A program made the position numbers and the translations under genes. The notes beneath the pieces are model-generated. The model was not told where the DNA came from and did no database searches. It saw only the letters and a list, made by a program, of their open reading frames with translations. From NCBI RefSeq assembly GCF_964355755.1, contig NC_092671.1, forward strand, positions 14,674,501 to 14,738,500: a stretch of 64,000 bases of DNA, written 5' to 3'. This DNA comes from Antedon mediterranea. Its lineage: Eukaryota > Echinodermata > Crinoidea > Comatulida > Antedonidae. Positions 32,325 through 59,225 of this stretch are shown one piece after another (position 1 is the first letter of the stretch; every line of letters begins with the position of its first letter).

Positions 32325-33462
32325 TTAGTTATCCGCACGACAAACGCCACGTGCACGTCATACGTTGGAATTATAGCACACAGAAAAAGATTATAGCATT
32401 ATGAACTGAACTGAACAATATGATATGTTCAATTTGTTAGTGCTGAATTCTGTCAATTTTGTGTCATATAGTATATACAGTGCAAACGGTATAATCTGTA
32501 TACATATTACATACAGTGTAGAATAGGTGAAATTACGGGAGCCGCCATTTATTCCTATTTTTACCATGGCGACGGCATCAAAATGAAACACTAAAATAGT
32601 AATTTCGGAAGGATATTGTCTCAGCAACAACATATTAACGTGTAGAAGAAATTTGGATACGTAAAATATTGATGCGCGCTCTTTTAAACGTGATGAACTA
32701 TGATGCAAAATATGAAATACGACTTTTTTTATTCATCTGGCCATATGATGACGTCACAACATCCGATTGGCAAAATGTTTACATGAATTCGTATCTATAA
32801 TCCAATAGCTTCCAGAAAACGTTTTAATCATGATTATCACTTTTTATTCTGACGAGCTATAACAGATTGAAATTTACTGTAAAAATGAAAATAATTGACC
32901 CATTTTATTTACATTTTTAGACATGGTGACGTCATAAAAATTGAAATATTTTTAACTCATGCGAAAGATAGTTGATTGACCTAGAAAATATCAAAATCTG
33001 GGTTAAAATGGAAAACGGATAAGTGGAGATGCGCTCTATTAAATGTGATGCACTATAACGAAAGATACAAAAATCCTATATTTTATATTCGCATGGCCAT
33101 ACGATGACGTCACAATGTCCGGTTAGCCATATTGATGCATGATACGATATCTACAACTCATCATCTTCTTTTTCAAAGTTTCAATTTAAAATGTTATTTG
33201 GTTTTTGACCTATGTTAAATATGAGAAAATCGTTAAATCGCGCGTAAATCATGTTGCGCAAATCTAACGTCATTCACAATAGGAGGTGCACTATTTCACG
33301 TAAATGCCCACATGTAGACAAAGTTATAAAATGTTATGTTAGCACGTTTTAGAGATACGCGACACACAAAATTGACACAAAGAAAGAATAATAAAAAAAA
33401 AAAAAAAAAAAAGATGATTTCATACAATTACAAGGAGTTATCCGCTGAATGCGGATAACTAA
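32325..33462. mobile_element. 1.1-kb inverted-repeat element with 178-bp internal repeats
   Basis: Exact 12-bp terminal inverted repeats TTAGTTATCCGC and GCGGATAACTAA bound the element. Inside are about four degenerate repeats of 178 bp. Three carry perfect TGACGTCA at 32749, 32927 and 33105, and a decayed one has GGCGACGGCATC near 32567. I see no open reading frame of note, so it appears non-autonomous. A poly-A run lies near 33391. Confidence 0.6.
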
Positions 33463-34374: not shown

Positions 34375-37300
34375 TTATGTCGTTGTCGTTGGAGGCGCTG
34401 TTTCAGCAGCAATATCATCTGACAATACTTCATCTAGAATCTCGATACTACTACTGTTAGAATCCCGTAGATTAGTATCTGGGATGACTTCTATTATCTC
34501 TTTGATGGCATGTGGAAGACTCTCACAGGCACTCAATTGCAGGTAAATGCCCTCAGCCTTCTTGAGAGTGTCATCCAGATCAATCTTTGTTGATAGTCCA
34601 TTGATGTGCTATAGAAAAACATAAAACAATTGGATGGTAAAATTGACCTTTGTGCTCATATGAAGTACTCATTCTATTTGAATGGTAAATGTTAAAGATA
34701 TATTGTCCCCCTAAAAAAATATTTTTTTTAAATTTTTTTGTTGAATATGTTATTTTAATGTCACATAATAGTTATTCACTCTCACAAAAAATTGGGTCTG
34801 AAAAAAATTTATTTACCTGAGAAAAATGTAATTTAAAGCAAAAAATTGTCAAATTGTCTGGAAGACAATGAATTTTTGGGTAACTGTTTATTTGTCTTTT
34901 TATAGGTGAAATAATTTTTTCCCCCGTTTTTTTTCTTATGGAAGTGAACAACTTCATTAAAACTGCAAAATGGCCTATTAAAAGTCCGATTTTTAAAATC
35001 TTTATTTTTCATGATTTTGGGGGACAATAAATCTTTAAGTAATGTTAATTAAGCTTGCTTTTACACCAATTACATTAATTTCAAAGCAAAACCAGTTTTT
35101 TTCTGGGGTTACAGCAACACAAAGACACTTTTTTGTATTGTCGTATATTGTAAATATTATTAAATCCAAAGGCAAATTACTGGAAAAAAATGATATATAT
35201 AATAATATCACTACCATATTTGGGCACACTTTTTTGTCAAATTAGTTTGATAATGTAGACAGAGCTTGAAAGAATTCTAATGAAGACTTTGAAGTAAAAA
35301 GATGTTTACCTAGAATAAGGAGTTATTATTAGCTACCAGGATATCATTTCAAGATACAGTAGTCTAATTTATATCATAGCGGAATCGAATTATGCAGAAA
35401 ATGTGCCAAGAGCATTCTGTTTAAACAGCAACTTAATATTTCATTAACTAAAGTAAACAAGCAAAAAATAAATGCTAGGTAACAAGCTGAGGAGATAGTA
35501 CTTAAGTTACCACTAATGAATATTGTTTTTCATTTTATACGACCTCATAAAACAGCATTTAATGTTTGTGCAAGATCAATATTAGATGCCCTGTGTTTTC
35601 CTTCTATTAATAATAACAGATACCCTGGTTGTGTATTATCAATACAGTAATAAATAGAAAGCCACTCCGAGAGTGCATACCTCCGCCTACTGTAAAATTC
35701 TATTTCTCCGGTTAAAAAAAAAAAATATATATATTTGTGTGTGTCTTAATGCTGTTTGTGATTTAGGCTAATTTCACTACAAGCATGTGTATGCGAGTTT
35801 GGTGTAATGGTTATGTAACAAGCCTTTCAATTAACAATAGCTTCAGTTGACTAACAATAGAACAGCAACACGAAAATCAAACGAGTGAATTTGAAAAGAA
35901 AATAGGTTTTTTAAACTACTCGCATCAAAATATGTGCACATTAAATCAAATTATGTTTTAAAATTACAAATCACAAATTATAACTCTTGCCTCTTGTACA
36001 AAAATGAAGTTTTTTGGACAAGTAATTCTCGAGAAAATGCAATTTCAGTATACTTGTTACTTTAAGACTGCTCGCCGGCTTTTGAAAAATTCTGTCCTAT
36101 CTTTTAACACTAGCAGGTCTGAAAAGTATACTAAAAAGTGGTCCAGAATTGGGACAATGGTCCCAAAATTTAATGGAATGGTCCTTGACCACATATCTAT
36201 CTGTATATTCATTTTGGTAAAGATCTTGTAATTACTTTTTGAGTAATGCTGCTAACCAACAAACAAACAAACAAACACACGCTACCGATTACATATACCT
36301 CCTTGGCGGAGGTAAAATATAGCAATATCTAACCATGGAGGTATGAAATTAGAATTTGATACCTCTGATCTAACAGTATTAATTTGAACTAAAAAACCAT
36401 ATCAATAAATACTCTATATAATATACATAAAATATATCCAATGGCAATTACTGTAAAAATGAAAATGCTGTGGTATCTGTGGCTGGCTTTCAAATAAAAT
36501 AAGCAAAAACGGTAAAACAAACCACCAGAAAGAAGTGCAGAGCTTTTAAAAAACATTAAAGCAATTATGCAGATGGTCTTGGTCCATTAGGCACATTTTA
36601 AATGTGTAGTGATAGTACCTTAAGGATTTCATTAAATCCATAGTCGTCTTGAATCATTAAGTCTTTTTCAGTGTCTAAGATGGATAAGCACATAAGTAGG
36701 TGAAAGTTCTTGCAAGGTAAACCAGTCCACATTAGCTAAATCAAAACATAAAAATACATACTGTCAATTACATTACATTGGTTGGGAAACGTTTTTCACT
36801 ATCATTTTATTTTATTGGTTACTGTTTATATATGTCCAAATGTCTATATCATTGATAAAACTGCTGTTGTTTATGTTGTTTCAATTCTCTCTGAGAGTGA
36901 AAGGAGATTACATTTTGTTTTATATACTCTAGCTACTCTTTTACTGAATGAGCTTTTTTCAAGGTTATACTGTAACTACATAAAACATGTTATTCCACCA
37001 AGGATTACCGATATGAGGAAAGAAAGGGGGTGTAGAAAATCTAAATATATCTCTATGGGTTAATTAATTCATGTTCCAAGGTTTTATTACTTTACAAAGC
37101 AGAAATAGAATTATCCCACACTTTTGTTGGATGATAGAAACATTTTTTTTTTATTTAGTCAAGTCAAGTGGCCGAGTAGTTAAGACAGGGGTGTGACAAA
37201 CCATAGCTATACAATCGGCACAGGTTCAAGGCACTCCTCGACAATTGTTCTGTTGGTAGAACAAGTCTTCTCCGATAAGGACTTCAAATTGGAGGTCCAG

Positions 37301-40300
37301 TGTACACATCTAGCTCGTGTGCACTTTAAAGAACCCAGTAAGTCTTTCGGAAGAGTAGGGGATTACCCCAGTGTATTGGTCTATTCAGCCCCTGTCATTG
37401 TGGACAAACAGGCGCCATTTAGGGGAGTAAAAAGTTGTCCGCACCTTCAAGTCAAATTGTTCTCCCCATTAACATTTACAAATTTAATAGTAAAATAAAT
37501 GTTGATATGCTAATCAATCAAGAATAATTTTCTACTAGATGGAAAATTCAAAATTAAACAAAATAGAAATAAAATCAATATTCAATTTATTCTTATTAGA
37601 AAAAGAGATCAAATCATTTTAACAAAGAAAGGTAATACCTCCCAGTATAAACTGATATCTTCAAATGTGAACTCTCGTTTAAAACGTATAAGCAACCAAC
37701 GGAAACAAAAATACATATTACTGCATTCCTTCTTCTCTAAAAAAAACAAAAACAAAGAAACAGTGTTATTGCCTACTAGTGCAGATAATGTATGACATAT
37801 TTCTTTCAGATATAGTTGGATGAGAGATGGATAAATGTTAGGTATTAACAACATATTATTAAGCAATACAAAATATTAAGGACATACCTAAGTAAACAAA
37901 CAATTCTGGATCTAGGAATTGCAACAGTGTATTTAATTGTGTCAGTTGTTTCTTCATACCAGCTTGATCCAAATCAAAGTTACTCATCTAAACACAAAAA
38001 GATATAGATATTTAAACAAAATGTATTACAGTACTTTCTGAATACTAATAATCTAAAAATAATAACTTGTAACAAGTTGTAACCAGGTTTGCATATTGTG
38101 AAGAAAATATTTGTGGAAAAAAAAATTGATGAGAAGCCTGTTTTTTTTGTTCCGAGATGTCCAGCATGTATTGCCCTGGTATTAAACTAATCAATCATAG
38201 TAATATAGCACAACTATGCTTTCTCCTGCGATTTCCCAGTTTGAGTATGCATGTATATGAAAATGTGTAATAAATCGGGAGATCAAACCTTATTACAAAT
38301 TGATACAAGTTGTAACAATTTTTGCAGATGTGAAAAGGGTAAAAGTAGTAGTTCTGATAAAAATTACCATGACTCAAAAAGGAATATTTTGCACCATCAG
38401 AACCTTCTATATGATGCAGTGTAATGATAGATTATACTTATTGTAGTAGTATTATAGTCCATGCTATGTCATGTTAGTTGGATACAGTGCTTTTAATATC
38501 GAAATTTTATGGAAAATTGAATTAATACATGGTGGTGGTAACCCATTAATTAATGTATGGTGCTGGTAACCCATTAATTAATGCATGGTGGTGATGGTAT
38601 TATACAAATTCGAATGTAACAAGTTGCCCACCATTCCTGGTTGGTCCATAAATCCTGAGAAACACCAGAATGCATCAACCTCATCATCCATTATTTCAAG
38701 AATTGGTGACAACATATCACTCATACCTTGAACATATCCTGCAAAAAGAAAAGCATTAAACAGTGCCAACTAATTTAGTATTGGTTTCATTATAGAATAT
38801 GTTCAATTACTGATTGTTGTAGAATGCATGTGGCCAAGTGAATAAGACTTGAAGCATGTAAACTATATGCTTGATTGAATATGCACACATTTCAGTCTAG
38901 GTTCTTGATATGACAAATTCATAAACACTACAAATGCTTTATGTAATTAGTAACAAAAACTTGACCTGTGTTTATTTTTTTTTATCAAAGTTATACTTTG
39001 AACTTTTATGTCAATACCTAGATCAAAGTTGTACTGGGAGTAAGTCATTAGAATGTCGTATAACATCTCTAGATGAGGATTGTTGTCTCCTTTGTAGTAA
39101 GGATGCAGTCTATCTGTACGTAAAACGTCTTTATCTGCAAACAAAATACAATCATTTTATAGACTAAACCAAAATTGTTTTGATTATTTATGTTTTAGAA
39201 TTTTCCAAGGAAACTTCAAAAGGGTGGAGATTAGAGTATTATTTTAAACTAATTTACCAATAACATTCCTCCTTTCTCGTAAAATTCCGAAACGCTTTTC
39301 TTGATCTTCTGATATAGTCTTCCACTGTGCTTTCATACAAAAATACTCATCTCTGAAAAATAAAAATAATAGTAATACTGAATTAATGTAACATACAGTT
39401 AGGTTATCATGTGTTTTCTTAAAGTTTTCTCTCAGGTTGTTTCTCGTAGGTTGTTTATTAACTATTCAAACTGGTTCTTGTAAAACAAAATGACGACTTC
39501 AAATGAATGACTGGCATAAAATAAAAATAACTTTTTAATTCACAAACATATTTTGATTAAAATAATCATCATCTAAACAACTAAAAGAAAGAAACAAGCA
39601 TTGTACACTATATTTACTATGGTGTCATACAATACATACTCTTTCTTTTTTCTTAAAGCTTTCTTTTCTTTGGTTGTTAAATTCCAATCAAAATATCCCA
39701 ATAAGAATTTCCAAGCTTCTTTTCTTACTGAAGCACACAAACCCTGAAAGAAAAAGTACATTAAAAAAAATATGTAGTATAATATATGGCAATGGTTATA
39801 ATTTACTTTTTGAATGTACCAAAATAATGATGATTTGGGAAATGGGTGAAAATGTTTTTTTAGCTTGAAATATAGGAAAAAAATACAAGGACACGTAAGT
39901 AGTAGTTTTTAGTTACTTACACCTCTAAATATTCTTTCTTTCAGGGCATCGACATCTGTTATCCTACCGTTTGAATCCACATGACCAGCCCACTCATTTG
40001 GGGTCACTATGCCCTCTCTCTTCACATCAGGTCTTGGACCAAGCTTTCTCTATAAACAAAGACATTAGTTTATTTAGTTTATTTGGTTATTAGTTCACTG
40101 AAATGCATGAAGAAACATTATCCAGTCGAAAAGATTTATAAAACCAAATTGATCACATTTTTAATACAGGACAATTAGTTACCTCTGCTATCATTTCATA
40201 TGTTGTGTGGTTTGCTAAGGATGGTTCAATAGTCAGTCCTATCATATCTGGCATAAGCTCAGCATAATCATCAAATGGTCGTGTTTTCTGAGCAGGCTGG

Positions 40301-56700: not shown

Positions 56701-59225
56701 GAAGGTCCTGAGTGAACGTAGTCCGACAACTCAACTTCCAATGGAAACATCCTCTGACATAGTTCACTATCTTCTTTTAACTTCTCTGGCCACTGAGTAC
56801 ACAATTCTGTATAATAAATTTAAATTGATTTATTCAATATGCTCGTAAAAACTAATACGACAAAACAGAAAATGAGGATAACCCTGTAATTGTTAATAAT
56901 ACAATTAAGGTAGAACTCATACATAGAAACATCTGTATTTTTTGGGGTCCTAAATGGGTCCTCTTAATAGAGACACGTAGTAAACAAACCTGTTAAAATG
57001 AACTGAAAGTAAAACTGAAAAGTATGTTAATTTGTTTTGATTATCATATCAATCAACCAACCAATATTTATAAAAAAAAACACAAATAAATCATAGTTAT
57101 TTAAATCAATTAATTAATTTGAGATTACCTTTCAATGCCGCGCATTGCTTCTTGATCGCCGGAGGGGTAAGATGTAGAAAATTTGGAATCTAATATAAAA
57201 ATCAAAAGTTGACTGTACAATAAAGATCACATATAAAATCTACATAGAAAATAACAATGCATGAAAGAGGGACTGGAAATAAATAGAAAAAATGTGCTTA
57301 ATAAATTTGTTTACCTTTATTAGTTCAGCATTGCCATATTTGTGAGGTGGTATACCCCGTTTTACAGGATACCCCATTCTCAGTGGAAGAGGAACGGCTG
57401 ACCACTTGAAAGAGGCTGCAGTAGGGTACACATTTGACCAATCTTGGTCCTCTTGCATCCTTGACTCTCGAGGATCTGGCAACTTAAAATAATAGATTGA
57501 AAAATGAATCTTGCAGTTGATTGGATGTTTACTGCATGGTAACTTTTTATTTTATTGAATTGTTTTTAATATTCTGCTACCACATATTATTAACATAATT
57601 TATTACTTCAGATAAATAACTAAACACAAACTGCTGTCATTATACAGATTACAGTGATTTTAAGAGATTTAAACTTGAGAATATAAAGATCATATTAGAT
57701 ACTTACAGGACTTTTTCTACGCAGTCTCATATTTAATGCCCTCATGGCCTTGCCTCTTTGAGAATGATGCGAGGATCCTACATATAAGTTATAAAAGAAA
57801 CAATATTTTCTACAGGAAAAAATCAAATGTCATTTCATTGAATACAGTGTATTTACAAACAAACAACATTTCAAATATATATAGGCCATTTTATTCTAGG
57901 CATAAAAATCCCTCTATTATTTATAGCCTAGCCTATATAGATAGCCCATACAGGAGACCTAGCCTCCATAAATATCATGCATGTGTTATGCGCGATTTGA
58001 ACGATTTGCGCAATTTGAAATTGCGCAAAAAAAATCCTTGCGCAATTTGAATTGAAACATGTGTTTCAAATTGCGCAAGCAACGTATTAAATTGCGCAAG
58101 TAATCTGCAAATTGCGCAAGGTTTTTCGACAGATTGTGAAATCATGCACACCCATATTTTTATAGTAATTTCTAAGAATGATTCAAAATTAAAGATAAAT
58201 ATCGCATTTCCTTATTTTAGTAGTGCAAATATTGTTATAAGTTAGCATACCGTCGAAGAACGGACGAAGGAAAACGAAGCGGTGGTGTTCCACCAGACGG
58301 GCGCGGCGCGGGCGGCCGGCTATACTACTCTAGCCTAGCTAGGGTCTGGACTACTGATACTGACTAGGTTACATGGCCTAGCTTAAACTAATATTAAAAA
58401 CTTAAAAAGTGAGTATTAAACATTATCTTCATTGAAATGGTCTTATTTATATAATAAAATACTAAATTTTAAACTCCTCTGCCTAGGCCTAGCCTAGCCA
58501 TGTATGGGAAAATTTACAGTTCGTTTTCAAATTGCGCAAAGGTGTCATATTGCGCAAGAACTATCTTGCGCAATTTACAAATTGTGCAGCGCAATTTAAA
58601 ATTGCGCAAAGATTTTCTTGCGCAATTTGAAATTGCGCAAGTTGATTGCGCAATTTGAAATTGCGCAAGAATTCTTTGCGCAATTTCAAATTGCGCAAGG
58701 ATTTTTTTGCGCAATTTCAAATTGCGCAAATCGTTCAAATCGCGCATAACACATGCAGCCCTCACTCAGGCTCTACTACTAAACTATCTATTCTAGTAGG
58801 CCTACTATATAATAATTGCATTTTTTAAAAAAATATTACTGTGCCAAGAAAGTGATGTTTAGATCAGGACATAGATTTTTTAGAAAAATTTAAAGTTAAG
58901 CTTCTATCTAAGTAGTTATTGAAAAGGCTAAACCTAGGCCTACATAATTCATTTGCATGCGGCTGTCGGTTTTGAATCAACCTCCTCTGGCTGGGCCCAC
59001 ACACAATTTCAATGAATAGGCTAGCTCACCCATGCAGGGGAGCCTACAGAATAAAGTTTACTTACGATCAATTTCAGATTGCACATCAGGTAAAGAAGTT
59101 GAAACAAGCGAACCATAATGACATTGCCTTATCTGCTGATGGAAATTTAAAGAGCTTTTTCTACTACAAACATCTAATAAACCAGGATTTAATGACAGTT
59201 TGTAGAAGCAACGTGAAGCCGACAT
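53758..59225 (-). CDS. MRPS35: Small-subunit mitochondrial ribosomal protein mS35
   Basis: Nine coding exons in order: 59225-59066, 57777-57707, 57482-57315, 57189-57129, 56806-56664, 55206-55097, 54985-54916, 54694-54581 and 54234-53758. They give 457 aa (human 323). Conserved blocks are [75 protein letters not shown] and [18 protein letters not shown]. Exon 1 encodes 53 residues rich in Ser, Arg and Leu with no acidic residue in the first 18, as expected of a mitochondrial targeting peptide. From about residue 377 the protein ends in a Ser/Glu/Asp-rich repeated tail absent from the human protein. Family knowledge: mS35 is a structural protein of the mitoribosome small subunit. Intron 1 holds the TTGCGCAA element and intron 5 a nested transposon. 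Confidence 0.95.
53790..54010 (-). repeat. Coding minisatellite in the MRPS35 tail
   Basis: Three to four in-frame units of roughly 63-75 bp encode variants of [19 protein letters not shown] plus SED. TCTTCGGAGCTCTCACTATT recurs on the plus strand. All unit lengths preserve the frame to the final [13 protein letters not shown]. Confidence 0.9.
55487..56488. repeat. Foldback element, family GTTGATATAAAGTTTGC, copy 3 (split by insertion)
   Basis: The left end GTTGATATAAAGTTTGCGGT at 55487 and the right complement ending at 56488 are perfect. The body has been interrupted at 55517-56364 by another element. Removing that insertion restores a copy of about 150 bp matching 7840-7980. It lies in MRPS35 intron 5. 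Confidence 0.85.
55517..56364. mobile_element. 848-bp DNA transposon with TA target duplication
   Basis: Perfect 27-bp terminal inverted repeats begin CCGTATATTTCGGTGTATA. Subterminal copies of GTATAAGACGCACC follow at both ends. TA is present immediately outside each end (55515-55516 and 56365-56366), and uninterrupted family copies carry a single TA there, so this is a real target duplication. No transposase frame is evident, so it is non-autonomous. TA use suggests Tc1/mariner-type or related mobilisation, which is inference. Confidence 0.88.
57978..58757. mobile_element. 780-bp inverted-repeat element with 18 TTGCGCAA sites
   Basis: The left end TGCATGTGTTATGCGCG and about 70 further bases are mirrored at the right end with one A-run difference. 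The left arm (to about 58105) has six TTGCGCAA palindromes and the right arm (from about 58528) twelve, mostly inside AAATTGCGCAA or TTGCGCAATTT. The central 400 bp is unrelated and has a GC-rich patch near 58290-58320. It lies in MRPS35 intron 1. I see no flanking target duplication. Confidence 0.85.

Follow-up and report, generated by a model that had tools for sequence, protein, structure and literature searches.

A palindrome-packed patch in the first intron of MRPS35 is a copy of a young, high-copy, non-autonomous DNA transposon family in Antedon mediterranea

Why does one short patch of an intron hold almost every copy of a palindrome found in 64 kb, and what might read it there? Across the 64-kb stretch of DNA analysed here (the window), TTGCGCAA occurs 19 times, against an average of 0.64 and no more than 4 in dinucleotide shuffles of the whole window; 18 of these sites lie within 58006-58729, and a lone site lies at 33254. 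This 8-bp sequence is a reported C/EBP consensus, bound by C/EBP alpha and beta (PMC10941009). An earlier interpretation of the same DNA (the sequence-only reading) had described a mobile-type element at 57978-58757 with 18 palindromes in two inverted arms, and had offered two functions for it, a portable enhancer or a set of transposase or structural binding sites. The count of palindromes and their division into arms are borne out, with 6 sites at 58006-58119 and 12 at 58532-58729; the terminal sequences, described as near-identical, are perfectly complementary, and the remark that the sites are mostly ATTGCGCAA is true of all 18, on one or the other strand. The location also stands, but 6 bp too many were included at either end, since the target next to the element is a palindrome too (TGCATG/CATGCA, with CATG as the duplicated part). 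Comparison with other copies fixes the true ends at 57984 and 58751, giving the following parts:

57984-58751, no strand assigned: complete copy of a non-autonomous DNA transposon, 768 bp, identified by its terminal inverted repeats (TIRs), its target-site duplication (TSD) and ~360 homologous copies
57980-57983, no strand assigned: left TSD, CATG
58752-58755, no strand assigned: right TSD, CATG
57984-58033, plus strand: left TIR, 50 bp, beginning TGTTATGCGCGATTTGAACGATTTGCGCAA, 100% complementary to 58702-58751
58702-58751, minus strand: right TIR, 50 bp, perfect complement of the left repeat
57984-58119, plus strand: A arm, 6 TTGCGCAA sites at 58006, 58021, 58038, 58071, 58092 and 58112, a layout common to most copies
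58120-58531, no strand assigned: non-coding interior, G+C-rich near 58250-58320, subfamily-dependent
58532-58751, minus strand: B arm, 12 TTGCGCAA sites at ~15-bp spacing, with a unit number that varies among copies

The TIRs of this copy start TGTTATGCGCGATTTGAACG and are perfect over 50 bp; when the symmetry of the target is included, 57978-58033 and 58702-58757 form a perfect inverted repeat of 56 nt. As a single strand the element would fold back on itself almost completely (-210 kcal/mol, z = -20). Its longest stop-free frame, 78 codons, is built of repeat.

The element lies inside the first coding intron of MRPS35, between 59066 and 57777, flanked by two exons:

59225-59066, minus strand: first coding exon of MRPS35, with consistent splice sites and a protein match
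57777-57707, minus strand: second coding exon of MRPS35, with consistent splice sites and a protein match

Joined to further minus-strand exons, these two match mS35/MRPS35 mitoribosomal chains in a search of PDB sequences (E down to 5e-34), which together with the splice sites confirms the placement in MRPS35 intron 1 given by the sequence-only reading; a Pfam scan of the partial gene model gave no match. Within this intron the element is most likely a neutral passenger.

We searched the genome (354 Mb, 18 contigs) for further copies. The 30-bp end, allowing up to 3 mismatches, matched 722 times (355 forward and 367 reverse), against 0 for a reversed control, and the family therefore comprises ~360 copies; an anchor pattern for the A arm was counted 302 times. 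Forty scored copies were 95-100% identical over nearly the full element. An exact 4-bp TSD flanked 35 of the 42 copies examined, and two more carried a 5-bp TSD (TACCG and TGGCC). Empty sites complete the case for mobility. The insertion of copy L034 has two related sites without the element, one at locus L040 and one in the window itself, and in both the flanks run continuously through a single target:

37244-37377, minus strand: paralogous empty site for copy L034, related sequence without the element

The pair L016 and L036 also covers an insertion junction, with a less clean alignment there. The expansion appears to be recent, since mean pairwise divergence is 0.9% over a 240-bp non-array segment of 28 copies and about half of these are identical to the consensus. 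Each of the five copies translated lacked a substantial reading frame, their longest frames being made of repeat; as the copies seen encode no protein, the element is non-autonomous. Other classes of repeat do not fit: a Helitron is ruled out by the TSD and TIRs, an LTR element by the inverted orientation of the ends, and a satellite by the dispersal of single copies, each with its TSD. The patch is thus a copy of a cut-and-paste DNA transposon that is young, non-autonomous and present in high copy number. The mobile-element interpretation made earlier holds on hundreds of copies, TSDs and empty sites; the locus is far from unique, and the other copies examined have the palindrome array as well.

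Comparison of the fetched copies separates what is constant in this family from what varies. Both ends start with TGTTATGCGCGATTTGAACGATTTGCGCAA, and among 82 ends of these copies the outermost ~20 bp is nearly invariant, with the terminus reading TGTTA in 81 of the 82 and TGTCA in one. Most copies have an A arm of 6 palindromes in a fixed layout. The B-arm array is variable, mostly at 15-16-bp spacing, and includes double units (TTGCGCAATTTNAAATTGCGCAA) that number 1692 genome-wide, while the control gives 0. Copies that have both ends measure 388 to 1516 bp and hold between 4 and 21 palindromes, and their interiors differ among subfamilies, none with a recognisable protein. The shortest of these (L026) has 4 palindromes and is likewise flanked by a TSD; an extended array may therefore help but is not strictly necessary. 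Structurally the family is of the foldback type, its long inverted ends consisting of tandem repeats that vary, a description of form that does not assign a superfamily.

Some further features lie in single copies or elsewhere in the genome. Copy L010 (C1:2620166-2621577) contains a nested foldback insert of ~290 bp (ACGAAAGCCCATTAATGCC...GGCATTAATGGGCTTTCGT) whose interior holds AACGAATTAGTAATCCGTT-type repeats; this too is palindromic and looks like a mobile element. At 737-760 of the window there is an isolated, degenerate family end (TGTTATGCGCAATTTAAACAATTT), possibly a relic; the exon just downstream of it has a PGPG-rich translation that by eye resembles ODF3/CIMAP-type sperm-tail proteins. 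At C1:920068-938511, an 18-kb stretch has a TTGCGCAA site roughly every 1.5 kb, in what looks like an unrelated tandem array with one site per unit.

We then asked which transposase could mobilise the family. Chapaev, Sola and Academ transposons have terminal bases other than those seen here. Ginger2 elements have TGTNR ends, a 4-bp TSD in animals, RTATAY targets and TIRs of about 50-180 bp (PMC2836005), and their TSD has also been given as 4 or 5 bp (PMC10045372). The family shares with Ginger2/TDD and its non-autonomous relatives the TGTNR...ACA ends, TIRs of ~50 bp or more, and a TSD of 4 bp, occasionally 5. Its insertion target is likewise AT-rich and palindromic, with a core that fits RTATAY (PMC2836005) as a preference, not at every site: over 30 sites the target reads T R [Y A T R] Y A, that is, R[YATR]Y inside T...A, with T at position -6 and A at the mirror position each present in 27 of 30. 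The family differs from Ginger2/TDD in that this preference extends one base further on each side (TRYATRYA), and in its dense TTGCGCAA arrays, which we did not find described for Ginger2 (PMC2836005).

On these termini, TSDs and targets we infer that the family is a Ginger2-like non-autonomous element; membership can only be inferred, since the search described below found neither an autonomous partner nor a transposase. The assignment draws on ends, TSD length and target, and it is possible, if less likely, that the family belongs to another superfamily with 4-bp TSDs, be it Ginger1, IS481EU, Chapaev, Sola or Academ. The terminal bases of the last three differ from those of the family. IS481EU also combines TGT...ACA ends with 4-bp TSDs, but it has been reported only from parabasalids and has TSDs of ~15 and ~25 bp as well as ~4 bp (PMC10045372); scored for short duplications, copies of the family show TSDs of 4-5 bp. 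Ginger1 inserts at CCGG or CCGT (PMC2836005), a target unlike the AT-rich site of the family, whose TSDs are AT-rich and varied and lack the CCGG/CCGT duplication. A different superfamily would leave unchanged both the evidence for mobility and the role we propose below for the palindromes.

The search for an autonomous partner covered exact anchors, with full listings for contig C1 and the best-ranked matches elsewhere, and within that scope no autonomous element or transposase with family ends was found. The enzyme expected of a Ginger2 partner is an integrase-type transposase with H2C2 and DDE motifs. Unpaired TIR ends on C1 were inspected together with 5 kb of interior. They belonged to ordinary copies whose second end had mutated, apart from two: L033 is a copy of 1.5 kb that has a CATC TSD and is padded with non-coding filler, and L032 is a truncated end adjoining a tandem repeat. 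Tandem repeats with units of ~1.2 kb that resemble this neighbour of L032 occur at further loci (L071-L080; C6:5.80 Mb, C7:0.97 Mb, C11:10.19 and 13.50 Mb). An anchor placed where the A arm meets the interior, joined to non-family sequence, gave three matches (two ordinary copies and one unrelated gene). Its counterpart for the B arm matched nine times and revealed no new interior, three of the matches being in fetched copies and the rest having the same two variant continuations. A degenerate TIR pattern matched twice, in one short copy and at one isolated position. Matches to the rve domain were Gypsy-type where inspected, and the rve (best 150) and rva_4 matches listed on C1 all lay, as judged by eye, more than 10 kb from the listed family ends. 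The rva_4 integrase core (PF24764) itself has 85 matches, with a best E of 1e-76 and many in open frames (for example C5:18782495-18783052); these look like genes of integrase-type DNA transposons from a different family.

What, then, are the palindromes for? The reading we consider probable is that a Ginger2-like transposase acts in trans on this young non-autonomous transposon and that the TTGCGCAA palindromes serve as its secondary docking sites. Under this proposal the integrase-type transposase would recognise the invariant outermost ~20 bp for cleavage, and the tandem TTGCGCAA sites of both arms would offer multiple secondary docking sites, each for a dimer of its DNA-binding domain. Such arrays could raise the avidity of the element for a transposase in short supply and help its two ends to meet, and the variable number of palindromes would follow from slippage or unequal exchange within the roughly 15/31-bp array. 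A palindromic core repeated every ~15 bp in both arms is what a dimer-binding docking site would be expected to look like. Known elements offer partial parallels. Galileo belongs to the P superfamily and makes longer target duplications. Like the family, Galileo and foldback-type elements have long inverted ends made of internal tandem repeats that vary among copies and can fold back, and the THAP domain of the Galileo transposase binds extra sites in the repetitive TIRs; the Galileo TIRs are far longer, however (1.2 kb in Galileo G), and their sites are not described as palindromes (PMC3688188). The statement in the sequence-only reading that no element of such architecture had been described is therefore too strong, as Galileo-type foldbacks already have long, repetitive, transposase-binding ends. 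In piggyBac there are subterminal palindromes too, and a transposase dimer binds each of them through two DNA-binding domains; where subterminal sites form arrays, the usual explanation is that avidity promotes synapsis (PMC11707139). The piggyBac ends differ in their TTAA targets, their terminal bases and their few repeats, compared with 18 in the window element.

The arrays might instead have a passive origin, as by-products of slippage or unequal exchange in a foldback whose hairpin may aid amplification, with no protein to read them. The strong fold-back of the element, the variable number of units among copies and the TSD of the 4-palindrome copy all speak for such an origin. Nonetheless, the 8-bp core is kept in both arms across subfamilies, with 721 intact cores against ~35 one-base variants, and the mostly regular 15-16-bp spacing shows more order than passive slippage alone would leave, so we regard this origin as unlikely. 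Within the A arm, substitutions are equally rare in palindromes and spacers (0.5% versus 0.4%), with few CpG decay products, and there is thus no sign of selection on individual copies, as fits a young family; since the palindromes are no better conserved than the spacers, their function is unproven by the present copies, for which the family may be too young.

The same data bear on the other function offered earlier, a portable enhancer, in which the palindromes would be sites for host C/EBP or PAR-bZIP factors able to regulate genes such as MRPS35, and would be kept because they let the element be transcribed in the germline or in response to stress, or because they open chromatin to insertion. 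The core is identical to the C/EBP consensus over 8 bp (PMC10941009). In addition, the family appears to supply most of the genome-wide excess of TTGCGCAA: there are 11,438 sites against 3,269 for the reversed word, and ~360 copies with 18 sites each would account for roughly 6,500 of the ~8,200 in excess. The flanks, in contrast, are seldom the ideal A...T on both sides. The full decamer ATTGCGCAAT is present at 32 of 677 family sites (5%) and at 1 of the 18 in the window copy; the usual forms are ATTGCGCAAR or YTTGCGCAAT, with one outer flank commonly off the ideal, and the likeness to a C/EBP site is one of sequence. Moreover, the palindromes show no preferential conservation, and an element with no gene to express has no obvious gain from a promoter. 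An enhancer role therefore seems to us very unlikely. A variant in which the family adopted a host bZIP site (C/EBP/PAR-type) as its end motif, with the host factor as a synapsis co-factor or chromatin opener, strikes us as highly improbable; were it true, the burst would have left dense clusters of bZIP sites at hundreds of places across the genome, near genes that include MRPS35. Of the two functions first suggested, transposase or structural binding thus appears the better supported, by analogy with known elements, and we take the palindromes to be, most likely, sites where a transposase docks rather than a gene switch.

No description of such a family was found in the literature searched. 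As a young non-autonomous family it is ordinary in kind, whereas its layout, with palindromic arms of unusual density, is modestly novel; it also extends the list of Ginger2-like non-autonomous families by one of high copy number. If the docking proposal is true, its copies would form a natural series of 4 to 21 binding palindromes from a very recent burst, useful for learning how many sites an integrase-like transposase needs. Because most of the excess TTGCGCAA in this genome apparently comes from this one transposon family, studies of C/EBP motif enrichment here must mask it.
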